Below, one piece after another: positions 6,528 through 28,806 of a stretch of 64,000 nucleotides of DNA (its first letter is position 1; every line of letters starts with the position of its first letter). Location: NCBI RefSeq assembly GCF_000374085.1, contig NZ_KB893422.1, forward strand, positions 1-64,000. Reading direction: 5' to 3'. The notes under the pieces are model-generated. The model ran no database searches and had not been told where the DNA came from. It saw only the letters and a program-made list of their open reading frames with translations. A program made the translations under genes and the position numbers. This DNA is from Spirosoma spitsbergense DSM 19989. Its GTDB lineage: Bacteria; Bacteroidota; Bacteroidia; Cytophagales; Spirosomataceae.

Positions 6528-6550
6528 AACGGACTTAACCATCCTGTCAG

Positions 6551-9191: not shown

Positions 9192-9407
9192 TTTTTGCCG
9201 TAAGCTATTGTTTCGTACGCTATTCCCCTGCTCTTTCATTCAATTACAGGCTTGCAATTTTGGTTGCTGTTAAACGCGGTTAGCAGCACGCGCAGGCCTG
9301 ACCGGTGCAGGAAAACCGCAGGCGCTTAAAAAAAATAAAAAGCATTAAAAACGGGAGCATCTTAAAACAACGTCGACGCATATTGACTTACGGCAGGTAA
9401 GGATTAA

Positions 9408-9434
9408 ACATCCACCTGCCAAGCAGGTGGATGT
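9408..9434. repeat. IS end hairpin, tnpA-downstream side
   Basis: Perfect inverted repeat ACATCCACCTG / CAGGTGGATGT around CCAAG, whose outer C and G can pair. It lies 30 bp beyond the tnpA stop and matches the position of a right-end structure in IS200/IS605 elements. Confidence 0.7.
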
Positions 9435-9464
9435 GTTAAAAAGGAGCGGGCATAGCCCGCAGGC

Positions 9465-9947: not shown

Positions 9948-9987
9948 GCCGTAAAACTAGCAAAATGGCGTAGCCTTCAGGACATCA

Positions 9988-10006
9988 CCACCGCCCAAGG
10001 CGGTGG
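9988..10006. repeat. IS end hairpin, tnpA-upstream side
   Basis: Perfect 8-bp stem CCACCGCC / GGCGGTGG with loop CAA, 40 bp upstream of the tnpA start. It shares the CAA loop with the hairpin at the other end. Confidence 0.7.
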
Positions 10007-10036
10007 GTTATCGAGTTTCTCTTAATGTAAGTACAA

Positions 10037-10076
10037 CAGGGGTGGTTACCGGTCGCACGTCCGGCAACCACCCCTG
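10037..10076. repeat. Long near-perfect inverted repeat next to the IS relic
   Basis: An 11-bp arm (CAGGGGTGGTT), one mismatched pair, a 4-bp CCGG arm, an 8-nt loop (TCGCACGT), then CCGG and AACCACCCCTG. The stem is very stable and lies 30 bp outside the IS hairpin. Neither side carries a T-run, so it is not a classical terminator. It could be a remnant of another insertion or a transcript-end structure. Confidence 0.6.
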
Positions 10077-10459
10077 CTCGTCAAGCTGACTGGCCTGCCA
10101 GCTCAACCGAACGCACGGTCTGAGTTTCATGCCTCCCCTTCTGATGCGTGGAGCTTGTGGGTTGGTTAGTGCCAGTCAAACCAGTAAGTTGCTATATTGT
10201 CTTACTGGCTGACTAATAAACAACATAGACAGGGTTAATTGGAGTACATAGCGAGTTGGGAGCAAGAAAATGCGACATGAGTTTTAACGCTGGCTGTTGG
10301 GCATAACCACCCAATTGCTAAGACCAGTGGTATTTTGAGGGCGCTCCCTGACGATTTTCATCACTCTTTCCAACTCCAGGGAGAGGCTGGGGCCGCAACG
10401 GGTTTGGTCAGCATATGCTGCGACATTGACTACTGTTTGCCTGGATATACTGCCGCCGA
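10077..10459. other. Intergenic stretch without a recognisable gene
   Basis: About 380 bp between the hairpin region and the stop of the DUF885 gene. The only structure I see is an 8-bp hairpin CCAGTAAG / CTTACTGG at 10181-10208 with a 12-nt loop. No coding frame with family resemblance was found on either strand. Confidence 0.4.
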
Positions 10460-12241
10460 TTAGTTCTTCCTGGCGATTGCCTGCTGACTCTTAATCCAGC
10501 TATCCATCTTGGTTTCAAAAATCGCCAGGGGCATCGGCCCGTCTTTCAGCACCTGATCGTGAAAGGCCCGGATGTCGAACCGATTACCCAGGGCTTTCTC
10601 CGCCTTCTGGCGCATGGCCATGATGGTCAACTCGCCAATCTTGTAGGACACCGCCTGTCCCGGCGTGGAAATGTAGCGCTCTATCTCCTGAATAGCCGAG
10701 GCTTCGCTGACGGGTTCATTGGCCAGGCTATACTGAATAGCCTGTTCGCGCGTCCAGCCTTTATGGTGAATTCCCGTATCGACTACCAGCCGGATGGCCC
10801 GGTGAATTTCGCCATAGTATCGGCCCAACGCCTGGAATGGATCGGTGTAAAGACCCAGGGCCTTACCCAGACTTTCGGCATACAAACCCCAGCCTTCCGT
10901 GTAGGCATTGTAACTACCAATTTTCTGGAAGGCAGGAATAACGGTGTTTTCGTTCTGGAGCGAACGCTGATAGTGGTGGCCCGGAATGGCCTCGTGCAGA
11001 AAAAGGTCTTCCATGCGCCAGTAGTTGTACGTTTTAGCATCGACCACCGGAAAGTAGAACACACCCGGCCGCGACCCGTCGGGTGTGCCAGCCATATAAT
11101 GGGCGGGTGACGATGCTGCGCGGTACTTTTCAACCGGCCGAATCTCGAAGGCTGTTTTCGGAACCATGTTGAACAGACTCGGTAACTTCGGCTTCATGGT
11201 CTGGTAGATTTGCTGAAACCCAGCCAATACGGCCTCATCCGTTTTATACGGAAAGAATTTAGGGTCCGTATCTAGGTTGGCAAAGAACGCTTTCAGACCG
11301 CCGACAAAACCTACCTGCTGCTTAATGGCTTCCATCTGCTGCCGAATCCGTTTTACCTCGCTCAACCCCAGCGTGTGTACTTCGTCCGGCGTCATGTTCG
11401 TGGTTGTCGACGATTTAACCAGATACGCATAGTGCGCTTTGCCATTAGTCATAGCACTAAGGCCGACCGTTTCGCGGCACTGGGGCAGATACTCATTCTG
11501 GAGGAAGGTATAGAGCCGATTGTAAGCGGGTATAATCTGCTCCCTCATAGCGGTGGTATACGCCGTCGTCAGGCGTTGTTTGTCTTCAGCAAAGAAGGTA
11601 GCCGGCATCGTTTGTACCGGCTTGTAAAAAACACTTTTCGTTACATCATCGACGAGCATCGCTTTCAGCTGGGGTAATACCTTCTCGATTACCACCTTCG
11701 GCTGCATATACTGCTGCGCCATACCCATCCGCATGTTGGCAATGGCAGTATCGGTCTGAGCCACAAAGCCATTGATGCGCTTCAAAAAGTCGTCGTAGTC
11801 TTTCACCGACTTAAACGGGTGAACACTGTTGCCTGAGCCCAGTAGCGAAAAAAACAGATGGAAACCAAACATCTGGTTCATGGGCGTCAGATAGTCTGGA
11901 AATTCCATCGCTGCCAGCTTAGTGGTAAGGTCGAAGCGAAGTATCTGGTAGTTAAGCTTATCACGCTCACTCAGTTGGGGCTCCTGGTAGGCTTTCAGCT
12001 CATCCAGGTACCGCGTGTACAAACGCTTCATCTGATCGCGGTAGGATTGACTGATTGGGTTTTCGAGTTGATCGTTGTAGCGGTAATCACCCAGGTACGA
12101 AGCCATTAATGGATTCAGCGTCAAATAATCGTCGTAATAGGCCGTCAACAGGGACTGAAAGTCCGAGGGCGGAAGGGCGGGTTTTTGACCGAAGGCCAGT
12201 GAAGAACAGGTGACGAATAACAGAAGCAGGTAAGTACGCAT
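10460..12241 (-). CDS. DUF885 family secreted hydrolase/peptidase
   Basis: A 593-residue DUF885 protein, a family of predicted zinc metallohydrolases. The start at 12241 gives a clean signal peptide (MRTYLLLLFVTCSSLAFGQ); an earlier in-frame start would add 17 polar residues ahead of it. The mature protein spans the usual family length, with the zinc-site motif HEAIPGHHYQ at 416-425 and EGWGLYAESLG shortly after. The C-terminus reads MPLAIFETKMDSWIKSQQ. It is exported and probably periplasmic. It lies 153 bp downstream of the M13 peptidase gene in the same direction. A second, collapsed copy of both genes lies at 14530-14959. Some family members cleave peptides, but the substrate here is unknown. 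Confidence 0.88.
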   Translation of the reverse strand: MRTYLLLLFVTCSSLAFGQKPALPPSDFQSLLTAYYDDYLTLNPLMASYLGDYRYNDQLENPISQSYRDQMKRLYTRYLDELKAYQEPQLSERDKLNYQILRFDLTTKLAAMEFPDYLTPMNQMFGFHLFFSLLGSGNSVHPFKSVKDYDDFLKRINGFVAQTDTAIANMRMGMAQQYMQPKVVIEKVLPQLKAMLVDDVTKSVFYKPVQTMPATFFAEDKQRLTTAYTTAMREQIIPAYNRLYTFLQNEYLPQCRETVGLSAMTNGKAHYAYLVKSSTTTNMTPDEVHTLGLSEVKRIRQQMEAIKQQVGFVGGLKAFFANLDTDPKFFPYKTDEAVLAGFQQIYQTMKPKLPSLFNMVPKTAFEIRPVEKYRAASSPAHYMAGTPDGSRPGVFYFPVVDAKTYNYWRMEDLFLHEAIPGHHYQRSLQNENTVIPAFQKIGSYNAYTEGWGLYAESLGKALGLYTDPFQALGRYYGEIHRAIRLVVDTGIHHKGWTREQAIQYSLANEPVSEASAIQEIERYISTPGQAVSYKIGELTIMAMRQKAEKALGNRFDIRAFHDQVLKDGPMPLAIFETKMDSWIKSQQAIARKN

Positions 12242-12394
12242 GGACGAACAGAGTTGATCCGGGAGGACGTGTTTCATTTGGATAGATGACAAAAAACGGG
12301 GTGAGCATTGACCAACCGGCGCAACGGAACCGGTTCATTGTAAATCAGGAGATTAAAAAGAATGGTGTGGATAGATGTATCGTAGCGAAGTAGC

Positions 12395-14482
12395 TTACCA
12401 AACTTTAATCCGCTGGTCGGGAGCCTTGTACAGGGTTTGGCCCGGTTGCACGTTGAACGCTTCATACCAGGCATCAAGATTGGTTATTGGTCCGTTGCAG
12501 CGAAACTGATCGGGTGCATGCGGATCGGTCAAGAGTTGTTGCGCCTGCGATTCGGGCAGCATGTTAGTTCGCCAAACCTGCGCCCATGACAGGAAGAACC
12601 GCTGGTCAGGCGTGAACCCGTCGATTTTGGCGTTGCCCCGACCCTGCTTCGTTTTCTTAAACGCATCGTAGGCAATGGCCAGCCCGCCGAGGTCGGCCAG
12701 GTTTTCGCCCAACGTTAGTTGACCATTCACCTTGAGTGAATCCAGCACCCTGAAGCCAGCAAACTGCTCTTTCACCTTATCGGCGCGTTTGGTAAAGTTG
12801 GCGGCATCTTCTTTAGTCCACCAGTCGCGCAGGGTTCCATCGGCATCGTACTGGCGGCCCTGGTCGTCGAAGCCGTGTGTCATTTCGTGGCCAATCACCG
12901 CGACAATACCCCCGTAATTAATGGCGTCGTCAGCCTCCGCATCGAAGAACGGGAATTGCAAAATAGCTGCTGGGAATGCTATTTCGTTGTTTACCGGCAT
13001 ATAATATGCGTTTACCGTTTGAGGAGTCATACCCCATTCCGTTTTATCAACGGGTTTACCCAGGCGGCTAACGTTGTCGGTGTACCACCACTTTTGAGTC
13101 GCTCGCACGTTGCCGTAGAAATCGTCGGGCCGGATGATTACGCCCTCGTAGTTTTTCCACTTATCGGGGTAGCCGATCTTGCGCTTAAATGTACTGAGCT
13201 TGGTCAGGGCGCGCTTTTTGGTGTCGGCGCTCATCCAATCGACGGCATTGATATGTTCTTTGAACGATGCTTCGAGATTATCAATCAGTACCAGCATCCG
13301 TTCTTTGGCTTCCGGCTTAAAATACTGTTGAACATACAGTTGGCCTAATAACTCGCCCAATGATCCGTCGATCAGTCTGCTTCTGCGCTGCCAGAGGGGG
13401 GTCAGTTGTTTCTGGCCCGACAGCACCTTGTTGAACGCAAAATTTTGGTTCACAAACGGAGTACTCAGATACGGAGCCGCGCTTTTCAGCAGGTTCCAGC
13501 GCATATACGCTTTGAGGGCCTCGACCGGGGTCGCTGTTAGCAAACTATCCATGGAATGGTAGAACGACAGGCTTTGAACCAGCACCGTGTCTTGTCCGGG
13601 AATGCCCAGTTTAGGCATCAGCTCACCCCAGTTGATGCCGGGCGTTTGCTCGGAGAAATCAGCCACCGTCAGTTTGTTGTACGTTTTGATGGGGTCGCGT
13701 GACGCTACGCGGGTCATTTGTGCGTTGGCCAGGGCTGTTTCCAGCGTCAGAATCGCGTCGGCGTTGGCAGCGGCCCGGCTGGATTCTTCGCCAATCATGC
13801 CAAACATTTTGGTTAAGTTATCCCGATAGGCATCCCGGACTTTCTGGCTGCGGGCATCGTTTTTGAGGTAATAATCACGGTCGGGCAGCGTAGTACCTCC
13901 ATCCACAAACTGGACCACATACTTGTTAACGTTTCTCCTGTCCTGCGCCACATACAGCGAAAAAAACATCGTGCTTCCTTGGGAACGCTGATAAGCAATT
14001 TCGTTCATCAGGTCGGCTTTGCTTTTCACCTGATCGATACGGGCAAGGTCGGCTTTAATGGGGTCGAAGCCCTTCTGATCAATCGTTATACTATCCATGC
14101 CACTGGCGTAAAAATCGCCCACCATCTGGTGTAATCGTCCTTTGCCGGGGTTTTTGGCAGCCTCTTCGAGCAGTGATTTCATGGCATCGAGGCTTTTCTC
14201 GTACAGAATGCCGAAACTACCCCAACTGGTTTTTGACGCTGGTACGGGGTTTTTCTTCAACCATTCGCCATTGGCATACTGGTAGAAGTCATCGCCGGGT
14301 TTCACGGCGAGGTTCATATTCTGCCGGTCGATGAAAGGTATTTTCGGCGCGTTCGGCCGGGCCGGGCTGCGCTCAGCCGCACTAGGCCGGGATAGCCGCT
14401 TGCCGGGTTTGCCTGGAGGAGTAGCGGCCATCAGGCAAACCATCAGCATAACCGATGCAAGGAAGGTAAGTTGTTTGTTCAT
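12395..14482 (-). CDS. M13 family (neprilysin/PepO-like) zinc endopeptidase
   Basis: A 695-residue M13 metallopeptidase. It starts with a signal peptide (MNKQLTFLASVMLMVCLMAA), followed by a basic Pro/Arg-rich linker. The catalytic part shows NAYYMPVNNEIAFPAAIL, a substrate-binding motif of the family, then VIGHEMTHGFDDQGRQYDAD with the zinc-binding HEMTH at 532-536, and GENLADLGG supplying the third ligand. The C-terminus ends KAPDQRIKVW, matching the family's usual last Trp. Length is normal for the family. These enzymes cleave small peptides outside the cytoplasm. The DUF885 gene follows 153 bp downstream, so the pair may act together in peptide breakdown. Confidence 0.93.
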   Translation of the reverse strand: MNKQLTFLASVMLMVCLMAATPPGKPGKRLSRPSAAERSPARPNAPKIPFIDRQNMNLAVKPGDDFYQYANGEWLKKNPVPASKTSWGSFGILYEKSLDAMKSLLEEAAKNPGKGRLHQMVGDFYASGMDSITIDQKGFDPIKADLARIDQVKSKADLMNEIAYQRSQGSTMFFSLYVAQDRRNVNKYVVQFVDGGTTLPDRDYYLKNDARSQKVRDAYRDNLTKMFGMIGEESSRAAANADAILTLETALANAQMTRVASRDPIKTYNKLTVADFSEQTPGINWGELMPKLGIPGQDTVLVQSLSFYHSMDSLLTATPVEALKAYMRWNLLKSAAPYLSTPFVNQNFAFNKVLSGQKQLTPLWQRRSRLIDGSLGELLGQLYVQQYFKPEAKERMLVLIDNLEASFKEHINAVDWMSADTKKRALTKLSTFKRKIGYPDKWKNYEGVIIRPDDFYGNVRATQKWWYTDNVSRLGKPVDKTEWGMTPQTVNAYYMPVNNEIAFPAAILQFPFFDAEADDAINYGGIVAVIGHEMTHGFDDQGRQYDADGTLRDWWTKEDAANFTKRADKVKEQFAGFRVLDSLKVNGQLTLGENLADLGGLAIAYDAFKKTKQGRGNAKIDGFTPDQRFFLSWAQVWRTNMLPESQAQQLLTDPHAPDQFRCNGPITNLDAWYEAFNVQPGQTLYKAPDQRIKVW

Positions 14483-14529: not shown

Positions 14530-14959
14530 TTAATTCTTCTTGGCGATTGCCTGCTGGCTCTTGATCCAGCTGTCCAGTTTGGTCTCAAAAATGGATTGTG
14601 GCATCGGTCCGTCTTTTAGTATCTGTTCGTGGAAGGCCCGGCTGTTGAACCAGTGCGGTTAAAGTCCGCCAGCTTTTGGGCGTCGCTTTCTGGTTTGTTC
14701 TCCTGTTGCGAAAGGGCCTTCACGAGTTCCTGCAACCGAATCCTCGTTTGTTTTCGGATAGTAGCACTGATACCCCAGAAAGATTCGGTGGCGGGGATTT
14801 CGTTGGCCTTGATCCACCCGCCGTTCACACAGGCGAAAAATTGTCGTCGGGTTTGACCGAGTGGTCGATGGTGGTTTGGTTGAGGAACGTCCGCTGGGCG
14901 TTTACCGAAACGGTAGCCACGCACAGGGCTACACTGAAGAGGATAGAGACTTTTGTCAT
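14530..14959 (-). pseudogene. Collapsed second M13-DUF885 pair (fusion remnant)
   Basis: The remnant starts at an ATG (14959) with a signal peptide (MTKVSILFSVALCVATVSVN) and continues to VKPDDNF. A one-base loss in a T-run near 14847 then shifts the frame into ACVNGGWIKANEIPATESFW, clearly the N-terminus of an M13 peptidase. After SDAQKLADF the M13 similarity stops, and the sequence jumps in another frame to SRAFHEQILKDGPMPQSIFE and KLDSWIKSQQAIAKKN. That is the C-terminus of a DUF885 protein, nearly identical to the end of the intact gene at 10460. One deletion of about 3.5 kb inside a duplicate M13-DUF885 pair explains the structure. No functional product is expected. Confidence 0.85.
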
Positions 14960-15050
14960 TTGATACAGGAATGAATAAACGTGAACTGGGCAGATAGCTG
15001 CGGAGTTTTTTTATAAAATGGTGTGGATAGATTACCCGTTTGGATGCATT

Positions 15051-15115
15051 AAAGGTGAGAAGCTTCATTTAGTCATCCTGTCAGATTCGGGACATTTTCT
15101 GTCAGATTCGGGACA
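15051..15115 (-). promoter_or_regulatory. Paired 21-bp-spaced direct repeats: likely HTCS operator, copy A
   Basis: Two identical 16-mers, TGTCAGATTCGGGACA on the + strand, lie at 15079-15094 and 15100-15115, exactly two helical turns apart. A further box AAAGGTGAGA (15051-15060) lies on the target-gene side. The same arrangement occurs at 24377-24441 behind the intact hybrid regulator. Such direct repeats are typical of DNA-binding response regulators. Here the regulated gene is the M13 remnant, so the site is probably a relic. Confidence 0.65.
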
Positions 15116-15156
15116 CTTGAGGGCTAAAAACAGAAAAACGCTCGGTTTTGGGCATT

Positions 15157-15555
15157 TCAGACGCGGTTGGCCATAAACTCGGTGGGCGTTTGGCCGTAGC
15201 AATCACGGAACAGCGCAGCCAGATGCGAGGCCGTACTGAACCCTGTCAGGTCGGCCGTTTCAGACACGTTATGGCCCGACCGCAACAACTCGGCCGCTTT
15301 CTGTAGGCGGTACTGCCGGATCAGATCGGCGGGAGGAAGTTGAATCAGGTTTTGCACTTTGCGGTACAGCGTCTTGCGGTTCATGGCCAGTTGGTCGGCC
15401 AGCCAGTCGACGTTGAGTACAGGATCGCTGAAGTGAGCGGCTAACAGCTCATTTATCCTCAGCAACAGGGCATCCTGACTCAGCCTTAGCTTCGGCCGGG
15501 CTTGGCGAATAACGGGTGACCGTCTGGTGCAGCCTGATTTGGGTACAAGAAGCAT
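15157..15555 (-). pseudogene. AraC-type DNA-binding remnant of a hybrid two-component regulator
   Basis: A 132-residue frame with an intact AraC-type helix-turn-helix domain (VDWLADQLAMNRKTLYRKVQ, ADLIRQYRLQKAAELLRSGH, DLTGFSTASHLAALFRDCYG, end EFMANRV). Nearly every residue of this domain matches the C-terminus of the 1,358-residue hybrid regulator at 24483-28559, but the sensor, kinase and receiver parts are missing. Similarity begins at about residue 25; the first residues (MLLVPKSGCTRRSP) have no counterpart. It is most simply the 3' end of a duplicated regulator gene. A short DNA-binding protein could still be made from the ATG at 15555, in which case it might compete for the same operator; this has no direct support. 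Confidence 0.65.
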
Positions 15556-15686
15556 GGCTGAACAATAATATTCCTGCGGTATGGAATTAAGCGGAAAACA
15601 TACTTATTGATAAGGTCCCCTGGCTTCTGTCAGCAATGGGGCATTGCCACGGGAACCAGCAAAACGTTGAATAGCCAGGCAATGAG

Positions 15687-16142
15687 CTACGGATTTGACA
15701 GGGTATAGGTGTTTATGCTACCCCCTGTTTTCTGGCTGGCCGTGGTTCGGGTTAATCCCAGTTGCGTGTCCGTTAGCGCACCAATCGTAAACTCAATCGT
15801 CCCGTTAGTTCCGGTGGGCTGGGGCGACAGCCCGGAAAGTACCAGACGGGTATCGGAGGGTGTTGACCAGGTGCCGATGAACGTAGTGCCGTCGACCTCG
15901 GTGTACCGAGCCGAGGTTGGGCTGCTCAGGTCAAGTTTAAAGGTAGAATAACCGGGTACGGTGTTAGCCGTTCCGCCTTTCATGTACACTGTCGTGGCGT
16001 TCTGGTCTACCTTGCTGGCACTCCAGACTTTAGCTATTCGCTCCGATACGGGTGCTACGGTAGTTTTGCCACCACCGCAGCCGAAAACCATTAGTAGAGT
16101 TACCAACGCAACTCCAAACGATGAATAAACAGTTGATTTCAT
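15687..16142 (-). CDS. Small lipoprotein of unknown function (lipocalin-like region)
   Basis: A 151-residue protein from the ATG at 16142, chosen because it gives a signal peptide with a lipobox-like end (LLMVFGCGGG, Cys22); the open frame extends 31 codons further upstream without coding character. The mature part (about 125 residues) begins ISERIAKVWSASKVD-like and is rich in beta-type sequence (YSTFKLDLS, TFIGTWSTPSDTRLVLSG, TIEFTIGALTDTQLGLTRTT), a pattern common to lipocalin-like domain lipoproteins of Bacteroidota. It should be anchored in the outer membrane. It lies 124 bp downstream of the giant adhesin-like gene in the same direction, so it could belong to the same transcript. Exact function unknown. 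Confidence 0.75.
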   Translation of the reverse strand: MKSTVYSSFGVALVTLLMVFGCGGGKTTVAPVSERIAKVWSASKVDQNATTVYMKGGTANTVPGYSTFKLDLSSPTSARYTEVDGTTFIGTWSTPSDTRLVLSGLSPQPTGTNGTIEFTIGALTDTQLGLTRTTASQKTGGSINTYTLSNP

Positions 16143-16266
16143 GATTTCAGTTAGTTTATATGGTTTTATAGGGCCGTCTGAACGGCATTGTCCAGACGAC
16201 CCGATGGATTGAAAGTGATCAATAGTTTTATGCATCCAGCCTGCTAGTCTATACGACTGGTCGTTT

Positions 16267-19200
16267 TCAGGGCCTGAGTATCTTCTTTACCTGAGTCTGA
16301 TCCGAAGTGCTCACCCGTAGCAGGAGCAATCCGGCGGGGAAGTTGCCGATCTCCAGGGGCTCGATATGCTCGCGGGTAATGACTTTTACGTGATGTTCCC
16401 AGATCACCCGACCCTTCATGTCCAGCAGTTGCAGGTGTACCGGTTGCTGAGTTGCCCCCAGAATCTTTACCCAGATTTTATCACTCGTTGCCGGGTTGGG
16501 AAACAGATCAATCTGGAAAGGCGGATTTGGCTCTAGGATAGCCAGGACAATGGGCGTGGCATTCACCGTCAGGGCGAAGGGTTGCGATGTCGCGCTGCCG
16601 CAAGCCCCAACCACCGTACAAACGTAGGTGCCGCTCTGTGTGGTGGTTACGCCCGTCAGGCTAAGTACGCTGGCGGTGGCTCCTGCCAGGGCTGTACCTT
16701 CTTTTCGCCACTGGTAGGTAAGATTCGTACCAATGGCTGACACCGACACACTGACACTGACCCCGGCGTTGACAACTGAGGTACTGGCGGGCTGTACGGC
16801 AATTTGGGTTCGCTGGCTGCTGTTGTCCTCACTAACGACCAGAGTAGTGGTCGCCACGCAGCCACCGGCGTTTGTGACCGTAACCGAGTACGTACCCGAT
16901 GCATTGACCGTTGCCGTTCCGGTAGCCGCGTTCTGGCTGGCAATATTCGGTCCGGCAAATCGGTATGTGAACGGTGCCCCTACAGTACCGCCACCTGCCG
17001 TCAGTGTCAGGCTGGACTGCGTGCAGGTCAGCGTAGCCGACGAGCCAGCCGTTAAGGTAGGCGTGGGTAGGGCACTGACCGTGACGCTTACCGTACTGGT
17101 AATTGACGGCTTGCTGCCCGATGTGGCTGTGCTAGCACCCGTTGCCGTGACAGTAAAAGTACGTACCCCGGCGGTGATCCCGCTGGCCGTTACCGCGCTG
17201 GTGGAGGTGCCGCTCAGCGTGATACCCGCTGGTGCGGCCCAGGTGTAACTGTAGGAACTCCCCCCGGTGGCCGTTGCGGATAGGGCCACGCTGCCGCCTA
17301 CACATAGCGTGGTGGGGCTTGCCGACGAGACGAGCGTAAGACTGTTAGGCGTAGGCGGCAGGTCATCATTGAGAATCACTGCCGATGCCGATGAGGCTGC
17401 GCTGATTTGATAATCGCCCCCGTTAATTAGGCTAATAATTACTGTTTCGTCGGGTTCAACGATGGCATCGTCTATTGGATCAACCAGCAACGTGACCGAG
17501 GTAATACCCGTTGGCATTCGGATGCTGCTGGACGCGCCGGTTACGACCAGCGGTTTAGGAGCTGTACCTGAAGTAGCATAAGAGACGCTGTAGTCTTCTC
17601 CGAATTGAGCGGTGCCGGTCAGAGAAAAATTGATTAGCCAATCGGTTGTCTTGGCCAAATCTGAGCGGCTGAAAATCACGTTCATCGCACCTGTGGCTCT
17701 TTCAGACAGCGGACTGTTTGCGACCGCTATTGACAATGCGTTGCTGCCGGTTGTAATTGTCGAACTACTCACACTGAACGACCAGACATCAGGTGTGGTG
17801 CGCACATTGCCGTTCATGTCGGCTACGCCATTCAGCGTTAGACTAATTACGTCACTGGGTACTAAGCTTCCCGTTGGCACAATCAATACCTGATTGGCAT
17901 AGCAGCCCACCGAAAAAGGAATGGCTTTTCCCGTCACCTTGCTTTTTGCTACGACACTACCGGCAGTAATACGGGAGCGGTCTAAAGGTTCTGAATAACT
18001 GATGCCGATGGTACTACCCGTCTGATAAATGTCGTTGGTGGGCTGGGTATTTCCAACGGGAGTGGGCGCAGTACGATCAAGCACACCAGCTGAGTGTTCT
18101 GAGTACACAACGCCCGAAGCACAAAGCAGTTTCAGTCGCAGCTCATAAGCTCCGTCCGCTAATCCAGCAGTGGACCACGTGATCGGGGTACCATCAGGAC
18201 CGTCATTTAATGAGCTCTTTGCCAGTTCAGTTGCGTCTACCCAACTACCGCTCGATTTTCGATATTGAAGGGTTATATTTGTTAAATTAGCTTTTGTATA
18301 TCCACTGATGCCTACAGGCAAACTGTTCTGAGCCGCACTGTCGATAACCCAGTTTGGCTCCGGTGCGCTAAGTACCACTGAACTACACGGTCCTCGGAAA
18401 AAGACAGATAACGACTGGGTGGCCAGTGGACTACCACCGCACACATCAGTCACCTGAAACTGAAGATTTTCATAAGCCCATGTGGGTACCGCACGGTCTT
18501 TCTTAACCACTACTGTAATCTGAGTGTCAGTAAGCCGATTTACGGTATAGTTGCCCGGTGTGTTCGTTGGATTACCACCTATTGTCACAATGGCTCCATA
18601 AGGGTTGCTGTCTGGTACGAGTGACAGCAGCACATTGCGTGATTTATCGGTCGCGTCATTATCTACCTGACTGATATTACTCAGTAGCAACGTCAGTGCC
18701 ACCCCGGTAGAATCGGCGTCCCGGACAACCGATTTCGGTGAGGTAAGCCGAAAGTCATCGCGGGGCGTGGTGCCGGGTTCGGGTGGACAGCTCGACGCGC
18801 CCGCCAGGACATCAAAAACGGGCGTACCATAAACCGGATCTACTCTCACGTCCACCGAATAATTATCGCCGGCATTGCCGTCTTCTAAGTGATAACCGGT
18901 GGTAATGGCTTTGGTGGACGTATTGGTTACAGTGTTGCCCGTCTCCATTTTAAAGTTTACCGAAGCCCCACCACTCGCTCCCTGACCGGCAACCTCTAAC
19001 CCTAACTCAATAGCGACTTTTGCATCAATATCCATTGTAAACTCAACTGTATTAGAGGCTGTTACGGCTTCTGTGGTGCTTTTGTCGCGGTTTGTACCTC
19101 CGCTGAACGACTGATTATCGACGAATTTGGCGATTTTTTTATTGGCTGCGTTGTTGTCGAGCACTTGTTGCCAAACACTAATCTGGTTCTGGTATTTTTT

Positions 19201-22200
19201 TCGATCCGTGTCGCTGCGCGTTAAACTACTCAGACTATCCAGCGTAACGATAATGGCTTTGATCCGGTAGGCGGTGTAGTTGAAATAGGTACTAACGCCA
19301 GTTTTGCCCATGATTAACTGCTTAGACGATTTTCCAGCGCATGTGGCCGGATCATAGGAAATCACAGTTGCGGTGGCATAAAACATATTCAGCGCGGACC
19401 CCACAAAAACATCCAGATCATCACCGGTTAGATTGGCATCCGAATTATCGAGGGCACTGGTTTTACTGATGGCCGTCTGAATTCGCTCATTTACCGTGGT
19501 AGCCAGTATCTGTTCATTATCCGAACTGTTACGTTGCGAAACGGTAAGGTCAGCTTTTACACTGGCCCAGAGTTTGTTCTCCGTTTCGACGCCAATGCCG
19601 CTTTCGAATTTGTAGCCCAGCTTTACCTCCCGCCAGGCACTGAGCGCACCCGTAGTGCCGGAAAAAATCCGCATGGCGTGTTCCTGAGTCTGGTTTTTCT
19701 CCCAGAAACTGTAACTATCACCACCCGGTGGATGGTGCAGAACAAGCAACGGAATTTCGGGCGAAACGGTAGTAAAATTGGCCGTTGCCGACCGGGTTCC
19801 GGTTACAAGCACGCTGTTAGAAAGCGTAGTCGTTATTTTACCAATATTGGTAAACGACAGGTTGAAATTCCGGTAAAAAGGAAGAACGGTATTAGGTTCA
19901 CCAGGTACAAGTGTCAGGCTGGCGATGCCATTAACGACCGTAACAGGCAGTGTTTCTTCGGGAAGACTACGAACCGCTGTCGTAACGACCACAGTGCCAC
20001 TATTTACCGGGCAACCGGTAGCCGACGTACCGTTCGTTATAAACGGCCCCTGAAATACCTGCATCTTCACTACGATGGGAACCGCCTGCTGCATTACTAA
20101 GAAGTCCTTGCAGTTCTCTGGTGGAGTAAAATTTGCCAGGCGCAGCGTAGGCGGTCGCTGATAAGTCAGGTTAAGAGTTACCACCGCCGTGGTGGAGGTC
20201 AAATCCCGAATGAGCGAATCGGCAGGAACTTTGTCGAAAAAATTAACAAAATCGGCGCTTTTTACGGCCGTCGGACCAGTGCCTTGTGCCAGGCTGATTA
20301 CCGTAACTTTATACAGGCGGGGCGGCAACGTAATGGTGTATTTTCCCTGCTTATCGGTAGTTACCCGCTTTTTGAAGCAGGTAGTCGCCTTGCCATCTTT
20401 GTCCTTCGTTATGTCAGCAAATTCCAGCACGGCCTGACCCACCGTTTCGCTACAGCCCGCCGTTACCAGCCCCGTAATGGTTTGTAACGATCCGCTAACG
20501 AAGCTAAGGTTATAGACATTGGTGGTTACCGGCACCGTTTGGGCGACAAACACCGAGTTTGGGGCCGTTGCCGTGAGCGTGTACGTACCGGGGTTTGTTA
20601 TTGGCACGGCGAAGCGGCCATACTCCCCCTGGGTGAGCGAGGTGGATAAATAGCCGGTGGTTGCCGTGACTGACTCCGGGTTGCCGTTGACCAGCCTTGA
20701 GGCCCGGATGGTTGCGCCATCTAACGGGCACCCCACAACGCCGGTAGTTGAGGAACCTGCAGGCCCGGTAATGCAGTCAGGACAGGTTTGAGTTACCATG
20801 CCGGTGATTGCAAAGGTGCTCAGATCCGTAAAATTCTGTGTGTATACATGAGAAGCCTCCGTGAACGTGAAGGATTGGGGGCTGGGGGTAAATTTATGAA
20901 CGACGGCGTTAGGGCCGGGATCGGTTTTACTGGGAGTTAGCATCAAGATCGACGCCGTTACAGAGGTGGTCGGAGAGAGGTAGTAAAGCGACGGAATCGT
21001 GTACTCGCCATTACTCTCTGTTACGGCCGTATAGGTCCAGCTTCCCGGACTACCAGCCAGCCCGGTGGTGGTCCGTACGGCGGTGAGGGTCACGCCGGGC
21101 ACGCCCGTGAAGCCGTCCAGACTAACCACCTTCCCACTAAACTGACCATCCGATTTTATGACTTTGATGGTGAGGATATTGGAGGCTGTATTACAATCGA
21201 CCACCCGACGAATAAAATAGGTTTTGTTGGGGCCTCCATCCGTTGAGAGTTCAGGTAAGGAAATGTTCTGGGCGTTTGAATTTGTGATAAGCTCCCAAAC
21301 CTTTATATCACCAATCGTCTCACTTTTTTCCCAGTGAAGCCCACTCGGAACAAACGTCGTTAATGCGTCTTTCTGGCTCGTAAGTGGTGTGGGGGCTTCC
21401 TGTTTGTAAGGAACCAGCGATGGCCCGCCAATTATGCCGGCATCCAAACCTTGTTCGAAGGCACCCATATCTATTTTCGCGCCAAAGATGCGGGGGTTAC
21501 CCGCCAGGTCAGTAGTGATATCCTTTAAACCCTGATCGTCCTTGTTCCCCGCATTAACAGCCGGAGAACCGCAGGCCAACTGGATGTTGGTTGTACTGAC
21601 AAAGGGGGAAGTCTCGCCTGTTTTGACCGTCAGGTTACCAGGGCCGCTGGTATAGCCCGTAACCGACTCCTCAAACAGGCTGTAAGTGGCTGTAATACCC
21701 GAATTGGAGCCGTAGCTGTGAAAGGTATTATTACCCCCGTTGTCAAAAAATACGCAGTTAGTCAGTATCGGGTTGCTGCTACCATTATCCTCAGTGTTGT
21801 AAATCGCCCCCCTGCCGTCACCTCCGGAAGAAATCAAATTTTTCTGAAACGAGCAGTTAGTCAGTATCGGGTTGCTGTTGCCACCATTATTCCCAATGTT
21901 GTAAATCGCCCAACCGTAATTAGCCGAATTACCCTGAAAAGCGCAGTTGATTAATACCGGGCTGCTATTGCCCCCGTCATTTCCACTATTAAACATAGCC
22001 CCGCCACCACCGGTACTCTGATTGTTCAGAAAGTAACAGTTCTGAATGGTGGGACTGCACACCTTCCCGCTGCCGTTACCATCGTTGTGCATACCACCAC
22101 CACCAACACCATTATCGTTGCCCGCCGTAATCACAAACCCATCCAGAATGGCCGTGTTGGTGAGGTTGGAGTTAGAAAAAACATGATAACTGTTGTCGGA

Positions 22201-24249
22201 TATGTCGTTGGCCTTGCCAATGTCGCCACTCAGGGTCGTGCTGGAGGGAAAGGTGAGTTTGCGGGCTACTAATGTGGTTTCTTTGCCGTCGAAACCACCG
22301 TAGATGGCGATGTTGTTTTTCATAGAAAAACTATTGTTACGCGGGTCAGTGGCAGTACCGCTGGGCTTATAGAGACCTGTGGCTACCCATATTTCGGAGG
22401 GAAAACTGCTACAGAGACTATTAATAGCACCTTGTAAATCGTTGGTTGCAGTGGCCCAACTGGTAGCCGTGGCCGGATTCGTGTTTGTACCTGTGGCTGA
22501 TACATACAATTGACTGGGGTAGTCATTTCTCTGGAGCTCATAGGCACCCATGTCCACTTGCCCATCGTCTATACGGTGGTTACCCGCCAAATCCGTTTTG
22601 ACGCCGTCTAAACCCGGAGTGTTATTGTTCCCCGCATTTACAGCCGGAGAGCCACAGTCCAACTTGGTACTGGTGGTGCTGGCAAAGGGCAGAATCTTAG
22701 TTTTTTTATTGTTTTCACCTCCATACCCCGTCACTAACTCATCAAACAGGCTATAGGTTGCTTGTGCATCACCTGATACCTTATTCGGAAACGTACGGAT
22801 GTAAATTGTATTACCACTCCCGTTGCCAAAAAATACACAGTTAACGAGTACGGGGTGGCCATTACCTGGATCTATGTCATCCGCTATAGGCTCGTCAACA
22901 TTATTATACAGTGCACCACCCTGCCCCGCTTTATTACTGTTAAACGAACAGTTCGTCAGGATTGGATTACTGTTGCCACCTCTCTGCGAAAAGTCATAAA
23001 GAGCCCCTCCTGCTGCTGCTGAGTTACTTTGAAATGAGCAGTTTGTCAGGCTTGGACTACTTGTACCCTCATTACCGTCGTTATAGATCGCCCCTCCACG
23101 GTTATTGGCGGAGTTGCCTTCAAACGAACAGTTTATAAGATTCGGGCTAGTGTTGCTACGATAGCCTTGATTGTACATGGCCCCTCCACTGTTATTGGCG
23201 GAGTTGCCACTAAAGGAGCAACTGGTAATCTGTGGTCGACTATTACCACTGTTGTAAAGCGCACCTCCCCAAGTAGCTTTATTATCCTTAAATGAACAAT
23301 TTGTCAATATCGGATTACTGGTGCCAGATTGACCATCGTTAAATATAGCTCCCCCATTCGTTGTAGCTGAGTTGCTCTGAAATGAGCAGTTTGTCAGGCT
23401 TGGACTACTTGTACCCTCAGGTCCACTGTTCCAGATGGCCCCTCCTGTGCCCGCTTTGTTGTTCAGGAACGAGCAGTTAGTCAGCGTTGGATTGCTGTTA
23501 CCTCCCCTGTATCCATCGTTATAGATAGCCCCGCCCTCTTCATCAGCTTTGTTGTTCTGGAATCTACAATTGCTAATATTGGGACTGCTGGTTCCTCCCT
23601 GTATCCCCATGTTATATATGGCCCCACCTCTTCTTTTAGCATAGTTGCCTTCAAACCAGCAATTCTGAATAGTTGGGCTGCACACCTTACCATCCCCGCC
23701 GAAGTTGTTAAGTATGCCCCCGCCGAAATCATAAGCACTGTCACCTCTGTCGGCATATCCCCCAGTGATAACAAATCCATCCAAGATGGCATCGGCCGTA
23801 AGTCCAGGTGGGTTGTTAATCACGTGGTAGGAGTTGTCATCAGCGTTTTTCTCTATACCAATATTTCCACTCAGGGTGGTGCTGGAAGGCGCAGTCAAAT
23901 CCGGCTTGGGCCGTTGGCTTAGACTGGTTTCGGTGCCCGCGAAACCGCCGTAAATTTCCACACCGGGCCTCATGACAAAACTGATGGTACGGTCATTGCC
24001 GGTAGTAGGCTTGTAAATACCCTTGGCTACCCAGACCTGATGGCCTGCTGTGCTGGCTCGTATCGCCCCCTGCAAATCGCTGGTCGCCGTGGCCCAACTG
24101 GTGGCGCTGGCCGGATTGGAATTGGTGCCGGTGAGCGAGACGTAGCGGGTCGTCGTCTGGGCCAGCGCGGGTAGGCTACTCAAGAGCAGTAGAAACAGAA
24201 GTTGGTACGGTAGAGCGAACCTGGCCGTTCGAGAATAGAATTTGGTCAT
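16267..24249 (-). CDS. Giant secreted beta-helix/Ig/Calx-beta protein with T9SS sorting domain
   Basis: A 2,660-residue surface protein. A signal peptide ends near residue 31 (SLPALAQ). Residues about 160-850 hold many short repeats of the type GGAIYN...NPxLTNCSFxxN, the polymorphic-outer-membrane-protein style of right-handed beta helix, in two blocks. Each block is preceded by RYVSLTGTNSNPA or LYVSATGTNTNPA. Around 1050-1300 lie carboxypeptidase-regulatory-like segments (SGKVVSLDGFTGVPGVTLTA). A Calx-beta domain is near 2180-2290 (DDAIVEPDETVIISL), then Ig-like domains (TCTQSSLTLTAG, TYQWRKEG). The last 80 residues form a type A T9SS sorting domain (FPNPATSDKIWVKI ... KKILRP). It follows the hybrid regulator gene and its operator, so regulation by it is likely. 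Role probably adhesion or polymer binding. Confidence 0.9.
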   Translation of the reverse strand: MTKFYSRTARFALPYQLLFLLLLSSLPALAQTTTRYVSLTGTNSNPASATSWATATSDLQGAIRASTAGHQVWVAKGIYKPTTGNDRTISFVMRPGVEIYGGFAGTETSLSQRPKPDLTAPSSTTLSGNIGIEKNADDNSYHVINNPPGLTADAILDGFVITGGYADRGDSAYDFGGGILNNFGGDGKVCSPTIQNCWFEGNYAKRRGGAIYNMGIQGGTSSPNISNCRFQNNKADEEGGAIYNDGYRGGNSNPTLTNCSFLNNKAGTGGAIWNSGPEGTSSPSLTNCSFQSNSATTNGGAIFNDGQSGTSNPILTNCSFKDNKATWGGALYNSGNSRPQITSCSFSGNSANNSGGAMYNQGYRSNTSPNLINCSFEGNSANNRGGAIYNDGNEGTSSPSLTNCSFQSNSAAAGGALYDFSQRGGNSNPILTNCSFNSNKAGQGGALYNNVDEPIADDIDPGNGHPVLVNCVFFGNGSGNTIYIRTFPNKVSGDAQATYSLFDELVTGYGGENNKKTKILPFASTTSTKLDCGSPAVNAGNNNTPGLDGVKTDLAGNHRIDDGQVDMGAYELQRNDYPSQLYVSATGTNTNPATATSWATATNDLQGAINSLCSSFPSEIWVATGLYKPSGTATDPRNNSFSMKNNIAIYGGFDGKETTLVARKLTFPSSTTLSGDIGKANDISDNSYHVFSNSNLTNTAILDGFVITAGNDNGVGGGGMHNDGNGSGKVCSPTIQNCYFLNNQSTGGGGAMFNSGNDGGNSSPVLINCAFQGNSANYGWAIYNIGNNGGNSNPILTNCSFQKNLISSGGDGRGAIYNTEDNGSSNPILTNCVFFDNGGNNTFHSYGSNSGITATYSLFEESVTGYTSGPGNLTVKTGETSPFVSTTNIQLACGSPAVNAGNKDDQGLKDITTDLAGNPRIFGAKIDMGAFEQGLDAGIIGGPSLVPYKQEAPTPLTSQKDALTTFVPSGLHWEKSETIGDIKVWELITNSNAQNISLPELSTDGGPNKTYFIRRVVDCNTASNILTIKVIKSDGQFSGKVVSLDGFTGVPGVTLTAVRTTTGLAGSPGSWTYTAVTESNGEYTIPSLYYLSPTTSVTASILMLTPSKTDPGPNAVVHKFTPSPQSFTFTEASHVYTQNFTDLSTFAITGMVTQTCPDCITGPAGSSTTGVVGCPLDGATIRASRLVNGNPESVTATTGYLSTSLTQGEYGRFAVPITNPGTYTLTATAPNSVFVAQTVPVTTNVYNLSFVSGSLQTITGLVTAGCSETVGQAVLEFADITKDKDGKATTCFKKRVTTDKQGKYTITLPPRLYKVTVISLAQGTGPTAVKSADFVNFFDKVPADSLIRDLTSTTAVVTLNLTYQRPPTLRLANFTPPENCKDFLVMQQAVPIVVKMQVFQGPFITNGTSATGCPVNSGTVVVTTAVRSLPEETLPVTVVNGIASLTLVPGEPNTVLPFYRNFNLSFTNIGKITTTLSNSVLVTGTRSATANFTTVSPEIPLLVLHHPPGGDSYSFWEKNQTQEHAMRIFSGTTGALSAWREVKLGYKFESGIGVETENKLWASVKADLTVSQRNSSDNEQILATTVNERIQTAISKTSALDNSDANLTGDDLDVFVGSALNMFYATATVISYDPATCAGKSSKQLIMGKTGVSTYFNYTAYRIKAIIVTLDSLSSLTRSDTDRKKYQNQISVWQQVLDNNAANKKIAKFVDNQSFSGGTNRDKSTTEAVTASNTVEFTMDIDAKVAIELGLEVAGQGASGGASVNFKMETGNTVTNTSTKAITTGYHLEDGNAGDNYSVDVRVDPVYGTPVFDVLAGASSCPPEPGTTPRDDFRLTSPKSVVRDADSTGVALTLLLSNISQVDNDATDKSRNVLLSLVPDSNPYGAIVTIGGNPTNTPGNYTVNRLTDTQITVVVKKDRAVPTWAYENLQFQVTDVCGGSPLATQSLSVFFRGPCSSVVLSAPEPNWVIDSAAQNSLPVGISGYTKANLTNITLQYRKSSGSWVDATELAKSSLNDGPDGTPITWSTAGLADGAYELRLKLLCASGVVYSEHSAGVLDRTAPTPVGNTQPTNDIYQTGSTIGISYSEPLDRSRITAGSVVAKSKVTGKAIPFSVGCYANQVLIVPTGSLVPSDVISLTLNGVADMNGNVRTTPDVWSFSVSSSTITTGSNALSIAVANSPLSERATGAMNVIFSRSDLAKTTDWLINFSLTGTAQFGEDYSVSYATSGTAPKPLVVTGASSSIRMPTGITSVTLLVDPIDDAIVEPDETVIISLINGGDYQISAASSASAVILNDDLPPTPNSLTLVSSASPTTLCVGGSVALSATATGGSSYSYTWAAPAGITLSGTSTSAVTASGITAGVRTFTVTATGASTATSGSKPSITSTVSVTVSALPTPTLTAGSSATLTCTQSSLTLTAGGGTVGAPFTYRFAGPNIASQNAATGTATVNASGTYSVTVTNAGGCVATTTLVVSEDNSSQRTQIAVQPASTSVVNAGVSVSVSVSAIGTNLTYQWRKEGTALAGATASVLSLTGVTTTQSGTYVCTVVGACGSATSQPFALTVNATPIVLAILEPNPPFQIDLFPNPATSDKIWVKILGATQQPVHLQLLDMKGRVIWEHHVKVITREHIEPLEIGNFPAGLLLLRVSTSDQTQVKKILRP
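21700..23750 (-). repeat. Coding tandem repeats of the beta-helix region
   Basis: About a dozen and a half degenerate units of 60-90 bp, each coding for a beta-helix coil (NCSFQxNSAxxxGGAIYNxG). Some are nearly identical: the stretches at about 23028-23070 and 23376-23418 share almost 45 bases. They are in frame with the giant gene, so they are protein repeats and not a separate element. Such identity favours copy-number change by recombination. Confidence 0.8.
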
Positions 24250-24376
24250 ACAAGAGAGGAATTGGGAATGAGTGAAATGGATACCAAGACAGCGTAATCG
24301 AGCCGTTGAGTGGCCAGTTACAACCAGCTATCTGTACGGTACAAAACCGCGCTAAATAGCCTTTCTTAGGTGCTTC

Positions 24377-24441
24377 AAAGGTGAGAAACCACCTACCGAT
24401 GCCCCGTCAGATTCGGGACATTTTCTGTCAGATTCGGGACA
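24377..24441 (-). promoter_or_regulatory. Paired 21-bp-spaced direct repeats: likely HTCS operator, copy B
   Basis: Two copies of GTCAGATTCGGGACA (+ strand) at 24406-24420 and 24427-24441, 21 bp apart, and the box AAAGGTGAGA at 24377-24386. They lie between the hybrid regulator's stop and the giant adhesin-like gene (start 24249). The same set occurs at 15051-15115 behind the regulator remnant. The hybrid regulator is the natural candidate to bind here. Confidence 0.7.
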
Positions 24442-24455
24442 TTTTGAGGCCGAAA

Positions 24456-24483
24456 ACAAAAAAAACGCCCGGTTTGAGCGTTT
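24456..24483 (-). terminator. Intrinsic terminator of the hybrid regulator gene
   Basis: On the minus strand the stem AAACGC / GCGTTT (24483-24478 with 24468-24463) is followed by a run of eight Ts. The stem overlaps the last base of the regulator's stop codon. A degraded version is present at about 15128-15155 behind the remnant. Confidence 0.65.
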
Positions 24484-27400
24484 CAGGCGCGGTTGGCCAT
24501 AAATTCGGTGGGCGTTTGCCCGTAGCACTCCCGGAACAGGGCGGATAAATGCGAGGCCGTGCTGAACCCCGTCAGGTCGGCCGTTTCAGATACGTTATAG
24601 CCCGACCGCAACAAATCAGCGGCTTTGCGCAGCCGGTACTGCCGGATCAGATCCGCGGGCGATAACTGAATCAGGCTCTGCACTTTTCGGTAGAGCGTCT
24701 TGCGGTTCATGGCCAGTTGGTCGGCCAGCCAGTCAACCCCAATCGAGTCGTCGTCTAAATGCTGGTCGAGCAACCCATAAATCCGGGTCAGGAACGGATC
24801 CGTTACAGTGGCCTTTGTCGCTTCCGGTTCTGCACATACGGCAGTAGGCAGGGCAAATTGCTGGCGGTAGTACGCGGCCAGTTTCTGCTGTCGGCTAATC
24901 AGGTTGTGCAGCCGCAGGTGTAGTTCGGCCACACTGAATGGCTTGGACAGGTAATCATCTGCCCCCTGCCGGAGTCCCTCGATACGGCTCTGCTGATTGG
25001 ATTTAGCCGTCAGCATCACCACGGCAATATGGTCGGTTTCGGTGTGGGTTTTGATGCAGTGGGTCAGTTGATGCCCATCCATGCGGGGCATCATCACATC
25101 GGTAAGTACCAGGTCAGGCAGTTCGGCCTGTACCATAGCCCAGCCCTCCACGCCATCGACAGCCTGAATCACCTGATAAAAAGGAGTCAGTTCACTCACC
25201 AGAAACGCCCGCAGTTCGTCATTATCCTCCACAATCAGCAGACAGGGATTGATAGGATTGCCGTTTAGGGAGGGCTGGGTTAGTGGCGGAGAGGTCCATG
25301 TTGGTAGCAGGGGAATAGCTACGCTGGTTGCGTAGGTAGCCATCTGAACGGCAGGAACAGGGTCCGTCGCCTGAACTAGCTGTACGGGCAGCGTCAATTG
25401 AAACGTTGTCCCAACGGCGGGCTGACTGGTTACCGACAGCGTACCACCCAGCAGATCAACCAATTCCTTAACCAGCGACAGGCCAATGCCCGTGCCCCCG
25501 TACGTCCGGGTGCCCGACATATCGGCCTGGTAGAAGCGGTCGAAGATATGGGACAATACATCCGGGGCAATCCCAATCCCCGAATCAGCCAGTTCCAGTT
25601 GAACCCCCGCCAGTTCATTACCGGCCCGAACGGGAGCGACGTGCAGGCTTACCCGGCCACCCTGGGGGGTAAACTTCAGCGCATTGGCCATCAGGTTAGT
25701 GAGAATCTTCTCCCACTTGTCGGCATCGAAAACAACCTCGTTTGGGGGGAGTGTGTCGATGGTACAGGTCAGCGTAACCCCTTTTTGATCTGCCGACGGC
25801 TGAAACAGGTACACCAGTTGCGTAATAAACTCGGTCATGTCCCCCCGCACAACCGAAACGGGCATGTTGTCACCCTCCAGTTTAGACAAGTCCAGCAACT
25901 GATTGATAAGCCGCAGCAACGTACTGGCGTTGCGCCGAACGGTGGTGAGCATGGGGCGGTCGAAGTGATCCTCCAGCAGCATTTTATCCACCGGCCCGAT
26001 AATCAGCGAAAGAGGGGTGCGGAACTCGTGGGTGATGTTGGCAAAGAAATGAGTTTTCAGTACATCCAGGGCCTTAAGTTGTTCAGCCTCCCGGCGATTA
26101 AGCACCTGCTCCTGCTGCTGCCGAAGCCGATTGGTATAAAACCGGATATAGCCCCAGATTGCCCCGCCCGCCAGCAGTGCATACAAGCCATAGGCCCACC
26201 AGGTTGCCCACCAGGGCGGCTCGACGATGACCTGATACGTGGCCTGGTTTTTGGTCCAGAATCCGTTGCTGTTGGCCGCTTTTACCCGAAAGGTATAAGT
26301 CCCCGGGGCCAGACTGGTGTAGGTAGCTTCTGACCGGTTTCCGTTTTGAACCCAGTTTTTATTGACCCCAATCAGTTGGTAGGCGTACTGATTTTGCTCC
26401 GGGTGGGCGTAGGACAGCGCGGCAAAACCAAACGATACCATGTTCTCATCGTGTTTCAGCCGGATACCCTGACTGGGCATGGGTCGGGGTTTATCCAGTA
26501 CGCTCAGGCTGGTGATGCAGACGGGAAAAGGACGGGTATCGTCGTAAAGTCGGCTAGGGTCGAACTGAACGACCCCGTTTTCACTGCCAAAATAGAGCTG
26601 TTCGCGCTGTCGGAATACGGAATGGTGCATAAACGCCTGACTCATCAGTCCATCCCTAACTGTATAGGCATGCAGGGCTTTGGTAACGGGGTCCACCCGG
26701 CAAAGGCCCTCATCGGTACTGAGCCAGATCATGCCCGATTCGTCGCCCGTTATCCCCACGATACTATTGCCTGGAATTCCCTGTTGCGGGGTAATAACCG
26801 AAAACAGGCCCGTCCGGAAGTCGAACCGGTTCAGGCCACCCAGGTGGGTTCCAATCCAGATTCCCAGCGTCTTGTCCTCGTAAATGGACAGCACGTTATT
26901 GCTGCTCAAATGCCCTTTGGGACCGGCGGTAAAGTGGGTTATCACGCCACTTTTTATATTCAGTCGACAGATACCCAACTGGTTAACCAGCACCCACACC
27001 TCCCCAAGCTGACTGACAATCAGCCCGTATACATCTTTATCCGGGAGTCCGTTTTTGGTGCTGGGTTTGTATTTGTAATAGGTGTATTGGTGCGTTTTTC
27101 GATTGAACGAAGCAAAACCACCTTCGCCCCCCAGCCAGAGATTGCCGTTCGGCTCCCGGTGGAGACTGATAAACTGAGCCGGAATCTCAGACCGGTAATG
27201 GGTATACCGGCCAGTCGTTTGATTCAGGTAATATAGCCCATCCCAGGTGCCAAACCAGAGTCCATCCGGCCCATCGGCCACAAAGGAACTGACCGTATTG
27301 GTATGCCCTCCAATAGACCCAAAGTTTTCGGGGGGAATGCGCGAAAAATGCCCCTGTCCGGGCGATTGCCGGTAAACACCCGTTACGTTACTAATCCAAA

Positions 27401-28559: not shown

Positions 28560-28583
28560 TACAGTTAGGAAGGTTAGGTCAGC

Positions 28584-28629
28584 GAGTATACGAAAGTATT
28601 TAAGTATACACAAGTAAGTAAATATACTC
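28584..28629. promoter_or_regulatory. GAGTATA/TATACTC inverted repeat upstream of the hybrid regulator
   Basis: GAGTATA at 28584-28590 and TATACTC at 28623-28629 form an inverted pair, with AAGTATAC between them at about 28602-28609. It lies just upstream of the chosen regulator start. It may be a promoter-proximal operator, but it differs from the 21-bp repeats behind the gene. Confidence 0.3.
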
Positions 28630-28806
28630 AACTATCTTCATACGTGCTCGTACGCGGATGAACTGCTAACGCTCGTCTGGCCAGACAGTGGTTACCAGAT
28701 GGTACAGCCTGGTTAGGGCCAGTTAAGATGCCGTTAAAACTCGGCCCAGTGCTTAAACCAATGGGGCAGTACAGCGTCTTAGTAGCTGACTAAACAATCA
28801 GAAACT

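Follow-up and report, generated by a model that had tools for sequence, protein, structure and literature searches.

Hybrid two-component systems (HTCSs) are a main nutrient-sensing route in Bacteroidota, and the published operators that we found for them are from Bacteroides. AraC of Escherichia coli, a sugar-binding dimer working at a sigma-70 promoter, occupies at araI1-I2 two 17-bp direct half-sites that are 21 bp apart and located beside the RNA polymerase site. MarA and SoxS use single degenerate sites.

Statements on published HTCSs and promoters given here follow excerpts of the papers cited. For Bacteroides thetaiotaomicron, Ravcheev et al. (2013) predicted motifs of 16 out of 36 HTCSs, all of them direct repeats with an average distance of 21 bp, and found that related HTCS regulators have related motifs (PMC3878776). 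Gel shifts with HTCS fragments have been described for BT0366 (PMC5061871) and for BT4124 and BT4663 (PMC11253607); the latter work, based on engineered fragments, indicates that the receiver inhibits the DNA-binding domain in HTCSs of this species. Promoters of Bacteroidota contain a -7 element with consensus TAnnTTTG (PMC7366714; PMC9723704). In the literature searched, mostly open-access, we found neither HTCS operators in Spirosoma nor any description of genes that are derived from HTCSs and retain the DNA-binding domain only (DBD-only genes).

The DNA analysed here, called the window, is a stretch of 64,000 nucleotides from Spirosoma spitsbergense DSM 19989 (contig NZ_KB893422.1, positions 1 to 64,000). 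An earlier reading of the sequence alone had pointed to a direct repeat as a possible HTCS binding site, adding that few such sites are mapped; this remark is fair, although the direct-repeat form itself is already known (PMC3878776, as excerpted). Our results suggest that the repeat is very likely the operator of one HTCS subfamily and that, taken as a whole, the locus is probably best read as an HTCS driving a small regulon, one member of which is a soluble version of the DNA-binding domain of this HTCS.

All genes discussed are encoded on the minus strand. The HTCS gene (24483-28631) codes for 1382 amino acids from a TTG codon, probably with a later ATG start. According to Pfam, Reg_prop (a periplasmic propeller), Y_Y_Y, HisKA, HATPase_c, Response_reg (the receiver) and AraC-type HTH_18 are present on this one chain, the composition that defines the HTCS class; its S/CHIP loop seems to read DHIA. 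Predicted operator 1 (24404-24441) begins 41 nt past the HTCS stop and consists of the 17-nt half-site TGTCCCGAATCTGAC(A/G)G, present twice in direct orientation with a spacing of 21 bp. It is followed, 23 nt past the 35-nt repeat, by the -7 promoter element CACCTTTG (24376-24383), in agreement with the consensus TAnnTTTG (PMC7366714, as excerpted), and then by a gene for a surface protein of 2660 aa (16267-24249), which carries polymorphic-membrane-protein repeats, Ig-like domains and, as its secretion-system sorting tail, Por_Secre_tail. Between this gene and the DBD-only AraC gene (15157-15555, 132 aa from ATG, with a predicted seven-helix AraC-type fold) lies a 182-aa gene with no Pfam match (15687-16235). 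Predicted operator 2 (15078-15115), again two 17-nt direct half-sites, TGTCCCGAATCTGACAG, 21 bp apart, starts 41 nt past the DBD-only stop, and its -7 element CACCTTTA (15050-15057) is found at the same distance, 23 nt past the repeat. The first gene behind it is a broken 5' fragment of an M13 peptidase gene (14616-14960), followed by an intact M13 peptidase gene (12395-14482) and a gene for a DUF885 protein (10460-12292); relatives of the latter two stand directly behind the HTCS operators of loci L058 and L053, respectively. The broken M13 fragment shares 25% identity over 64 columns with the adjoining intact gene. The genes behind the two window operators belong to different families, and no susC/susD-like genes were detected among the seven window proteins scanned with Pfam. 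As for a terminator between HTCS and operator, a hairpin and a T-run are visible in the HTCS copy, but neither copy beats shuffled sequences (z -0.30 and 0.06), and no terminator is claimed.

In the window scan, the 15-mer GTCAGATTCGGGACA occurs at 15080-15094 and 15101-15115 and again at 24406-24420 and 24427-24441, which confirms the 21-bp-spaced repeat reported at two places, except that its start had been given one base too early (15079). The box AAAGGTGAGA (15051-15060 and 24377-24386) is 19 nt away from the repeat in both copies, within the 18-19 bp given before; it is the complement of TCTCACCTTT, that is, the Bacteroidota -7 element on the other strand. As the genes are on the minus strand, the functional, coding-strand reading is TGTCCCGAATCTGACAG-N4-TGTCCCGAATCTGAC-N22-CACCTTT. 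Both repeats sit between the stop codon of an AraC domain and the next same-strand gene, as had been described. Exact matches of the 15-mer number four in the 7,546,453-bp assembly (237 contigs), all of them in the window, compared to none for the reversed control; with up to 3 mismatches, the window contains five matches versus 1.26 expected by chance. Genome-wide, single half-sites (up to 3 mismatches) outnumber the reversed pattern, at 242 versus 104. The paired pattern at the same tolerance occurs at four places (none for the control): the two window operators, C42:2061, preceding a TPR histidine kinase gene truncated at the end of the contig, and C171:7446, preceding a small lipoprotein-like gene and then a second HTCS-like gene. 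For the paired motif, the genome scan proposed in the sequence-only reading yields four places in 7.5 Mb and not many copies far from HTCS genes.

Spirosoma, Larkinella and at least two more genera have the repeat behind HTCS genes related to that of the window. Our domain survey covered 222 genomes of the family, 45 of which gave a match at E <=1e-24 and had their regions fetched. Behind 80 related AraC genes, direct repeats show a spacing of 21 in 36 cases and each other spacing between 14 and 30 in 0-2, both with the consensus and in a model-free count; the spacing-21 repeat is absent behind the remaining 44. With a threshold of at least 22 of 28 on the same strand, the repeat lies within 300 nt past the stop of 43 of 91 AraC genes (28-36 nt past it in 22), and the best score in 360-nt control stretches inside the same genes is 14-19 in 77 of 78 and 21 in one. 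If up to 2 mismatches are allowed, the paired pattern is found at 25 places, spread over 16 of the 222 genomes, compared to one for the reversed control. Nine of these motif-only places are directly behind an AraC gene, four more within 2 kb and one more within 5 kb of one, and the other 11 have no AraC gene within 5 kb. All counts include three motif matches (L044-L046) that have neither an AraC gene in the region nor a -7 box and seem to be due to chance or to conservation of coding sequence. In one HTCS clade (L072, L074, L080, L086, L087, L030), the best repeat behind the gene is on the opposite strand, as if the operator were reversed. About 30 nt past the HTCS stop of locus L063 (genome G201) there is a 21-bp direct repeat with other, partly palindromic letters (GTCCGTTGGCGAACGAA / GTCCGTTTGCGGACGAA).

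Beyond the family, 80 named HTCS loci were reduced to 67 by removing matches that fell short of the DNA-binding domain or lay at a contig end. A 21-bp direct repeat is present within 500 nt downstream in 13 of the 67 (next-best spacing: 5), at least three of these 13 (L163, L165, L180) being longer arrays or low-complexity sequence; upstream, it is present in 4 of 66 (next-best spacing: 3). In L165, from a Tannerellaceae MAG, period-21 tandem arrays of about 11 and about 9 copies flank the HTCS gene on both sides (1864-2093 and 6536-6724), and may be operator arrays or simple satellites. At an HTCS locus of Spirosoma oryzae (L174), TGTTACAAT(A/C)GTTA is repeated with 21-bp spacing and followed, at a distance of 23 nt, by TAGCTTTG: the regulator is more distant and the half-site letters are other, and the layout is kept.

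Distance to the promoter was analysed in 65 sites for which the 35-nt repeat was the sole criterion of choice; two of them are overlapping registers of one place, and many come from related genomes. In 44 of them, nAnnTTTG starts exactly 23 nt behind the repeat, and in four it starts at other offsets. A sliding control for this distance gave a flat result, as the repeat can slip in register, and was replaced by this anchored count. In the letter profile the half-sites are 17 nt long (TGYCCCnAAT.TGACAG), and a clear -33 element is missing. With the second half-site ending 20 nt before the -7 box, about where a Bacteroidota -33 element would lie, a bound regulator would probably recruit RNA polymerase directly (class II activation). 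Two features of the operator class of Ravcheev et al. are present, a direct repeat about 21 bp apart and conservation in front of genes across several genomes that have a related regulator. The prediction of an HTCS binding site made from the window alone therefore gains weight from conservation behind related genes and from the fixed promoter distance; the pairing of regulator and operator is deduced from position and conservation.

The two window copies share a block of DNA-binding-domain core, stop, operator and -7 element (15045-15411 versus 24371-24737; 85% identity, 370 columns). Over 105 residues the two AraC domains are 80% identical. They had been called nearly identical, which is true of the last 83 residues (76/83) and not of the first 22 (8/22). 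Homology starts sharply inside the domain at VDWLAD (15411 / 24737), with 29 of 66 nt identical before this point and 218 of 249 after it. In its first part the window DBD-only gene is no closer to the HTCS than to other DBD-only genes, which it matches at 24-32 of 57-66 positions, compared to 39-52 of 63-66 for seven HTCSs of other species against the window HTCS. The sharp boundary suggests that an older DBD-only gene was overwritten by gene conversion from the HTCS, or else very uneven evolution; judged from this alignment, the window copy is a mosaic of 370 bp resembling the HTCS end and a diverged 5' part. The earlier proposal that a unit of regulator, operator and promoter was duplicated holds for the shared block and is too simple in view of this boundary and of the different families of the downstream genes. 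Polarised changes comprise 15 non-synonymous and 6 synonymous on the DBD-only branch and 2 and 3, respectively, on the HTCS branch (15 and 27 not polarised); as they fall mostly on the DBD-only branch, the first helix of the DBD-only protein evolves fast. A single origin of all DBD-only genes is not assumed, because the domain tree (11 rows labelled DBD-only, including one broken and one partial) needs 4 label changes and joins the window copy to the HTCS of its own genome (100/97).

The DBD-only gene of the window extends over 132 codons with no stop or frameshift. Its product matches AraC-type HTH_18 in Pfam, other overlapping HTH matches being weak and below cut-offs. Seven AraC-type helices are present in its AlphaFold model (mean pLDDT 82.6, with block means of 89-95 in residues 31-130), whose PDB matches include response-regulator, AraC and SoxS domains with E <0.001 and MarA with 0.0013-0.0032; the best solved relative by sequence is 12aw, deposited as hybrid two-component system (E 3.6e-15). 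With 132 aa, two helix-turn-helix units and no other domain, the DBD-only protein has the composition of MarA-type single-domain regulators (about 100-130 aa). A survey scoring up to 21 candidates per genome revealed at least nine open DBD-only genes with a start codon in at least seven of the 222 genomes and in two genera: those of the window, L053, L055, L056, L058, L069 (two), L091 and L106. The copies in L105 and L064 are broken and that in L103 is partial.

An operator follows six of these nine genes (window, L053, L055, L056, L058 and L069b, where it overlaps the gene end), and no clear one was found behind L069a, L091 and L106. On the upstream side, L055, L056 and L069a are the first gene after an HTCS-following operator (scores 20, 26 and 23 of 28, that in front of L055 thus being weak), and L069b comes after L069a. 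In the window, L053 and L058, two or three genes intervene between the HTCS operator and the DBD-only gene. The repeat preceding L106 is weak (21, with the -7 box one base off), and that preceding L091 is at background level (17), yet its -7 box is correctly placed. Altogether, six of the nine are located downstream of an operator clearly, two weakly and one doubtfully. M13, DUF885 or M3 genes are present in 4 of 22 main-clade loci, 3 of 52 others and none of 10 motif-only loci; those four belong to the eight loci that carry an open DBD-only gene. The numbers are too small to name a signal, and a shared peptidase regulon was rejected. In L056, the DBD-only gene is followed by a DUF885 gene (9359-11263) that is split into two open frames.

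Could the repeat serve another regulator, or form a structural element of the HTCS mRNA end, its proximity to HTCS genes being incidental? The 22 of 65 sites with no AraC gene directly upstream on the same strand would fit such a view. We nevertheless consider it highly improbable: the half-sites have the 17 bp of AraC half-sites, the fixed distance to the -7 box marks a promoter and not an mRNA end, and a 21-bp direct repeat is the form predicted for HTCS operators (PMC3878776, as excerpted). In addition, operator letters follow domain distance modestly (Mantel r 0.40; 38 of 5000 permutations reach this value), as measured on those 33 of the 91 genes that could be registered, of which at least two are misregistered. 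Gene conversion raises another question, namely whether the identity of the two window operators reflects recent overwriting of one end and not function of both. The boundary at VDWLAD is what overwriting would leave, and third positions agree with it (9/22 identical before, 59/83 after; Fisher 0.012). The non-coding flanks inside the same block have already diverged, though, from stop to operator (26/41) and from operator to the -7 region (7/19; the -7 region itself 10/11), and the operator has remained 36/36 identical compared to 33/60 of the adjoining non-coding letters (Fisher 2e-7). Both operators therefore seem to be held by selection, and since the operator is kept in other species as well, an artefact of conversion is improbable.

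A more serious objection concerns the short gene: the 3' end of an HTCS and its operator may have been copied by chance, leaving an operator that works for the HTCS beside a useless, decaying gene, the "remnant" of the sequence-only reading. The long branch of the window copy (0.28 versus 0.023 for the HTCS), the broken related copies in L105 and L064 and the broken gene behind operator 2 are all in keeping with decay. Codon changes tell otherwise: dN is 0.148 and dS 0.733 between the DBD-only and HTCS versions of the whole domain, compared to 0.047 and 0.51 in the last 82 codons, the domain core, which at dN/dS of about 0.1 is, on this evidence, under purifying selection; a neutral copy would be expected to carry far more amino-acid changes. 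The first 22 codons do evolve fast. The frame is open, and the open copies in several genomes have their own start codons. Moreover, the DBD-only copies of L056 and L058 pair with each other and not with their own HTCSs (100/92). We find neither mark of a pseudogene, a broken frame or a lack of purifying selection, and the term remnant is not supported; a relic is unlikely, and we lean towards the DBD-only gene being a working regulator.

On the preferred reading, an HTCS with a small regulon including a soluble copy of its DNA-binding domain, the HTCS at 24483-28631 would place one AraC-type domain on each 17-nt half-site, both on one side of the double helix and separated by two of its turns. 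Operator 1 would drive expression of the surface protein, the 182-aa protein and the DBD-only protein, and operator 2 that of the peptidase genes; two further predicted operators elsewhere in the genome precede the genes for the TPR histidine kinase and the small lipoprotein-like protein. The DBD-only protein, a putative regulator with no sensor, kinase or receiver, would be made while the HTCS is active and could occupy the same operators as a feedback arm, being either a sustaining activator or a competitor. As the receiver inhibits the DNA-binding domain in B. thetaiotaomicron (PMC11253607, as excerpted), a receiver-less domain should be free. Architecture, conservation, open frame, position and predicted fold are given by the sequence, and from them we infer binding, activation, operon structure and the action of the DBD-only protein. 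More tentatively, HTCSs of the Spirosoma group might be two-tiered: the membrane-held regulator would turn on the operator just past its own gene, and the soluble domain encoded in that operon would spread or hold the response at further operator copies. Operator copies number 12 in the 7 genomes with an open DBD-only gene and 9 in the 38 other genomes with related AraC genes (Mann-Whitney p = 0.0005), a comparison biased by a motif taken from one DBD-only genome and by relatedness of the genomes.

Because the operator, its register and the promoter distance can be read from sequence, often about 31 nt past the regulator stop, operators of this subfamily could be listed for many genomes. A natural DBD-only partner would make it simple to test by what means a regulator tethered to the membrane gets to distant promoters or becomes switched off.

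Judged by its layout, the Spirosoma operator belongs to the known HTCS operator class and has new letters. With B. thetaiotaomicron it shares an AraC-type HTCS and a direct repeat of about 21 bp upstream of regulated genes (PMC3878776). It differs in its letters, in the bacterial family, in its tight place behind the stop of its own regulator and in the fixed 23 nt to the -7 box, the latter two being features that the excerpted part of PMC3878776 does not mention. Behind it are genes for surface proteins and peptidases, among others, and the scanned ones include no SusC/SusD. Compared to the work on BT4124 and BT4663, which used engineered fragments (PMC11253607, as excerpted), the DBD-only gene is a natural one, and its presence inside a presumed HTCS regulon is the part for which we found no published description in the literature searched. 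The likeness to E. coli AraC lies in half-site size and spacing and in the position next to the RNA polymerase site, the regulator here being a membrane kinase. To MarA and SoxS (PDB 1bl0, 7w5w) the DBD-only protein is similar as a lone AraC-type domain with two helix-turn-helix units and no sensor; in contrast to them, its gene is derived from an HTCS and located inside the presumed regulon of that same HTCS.
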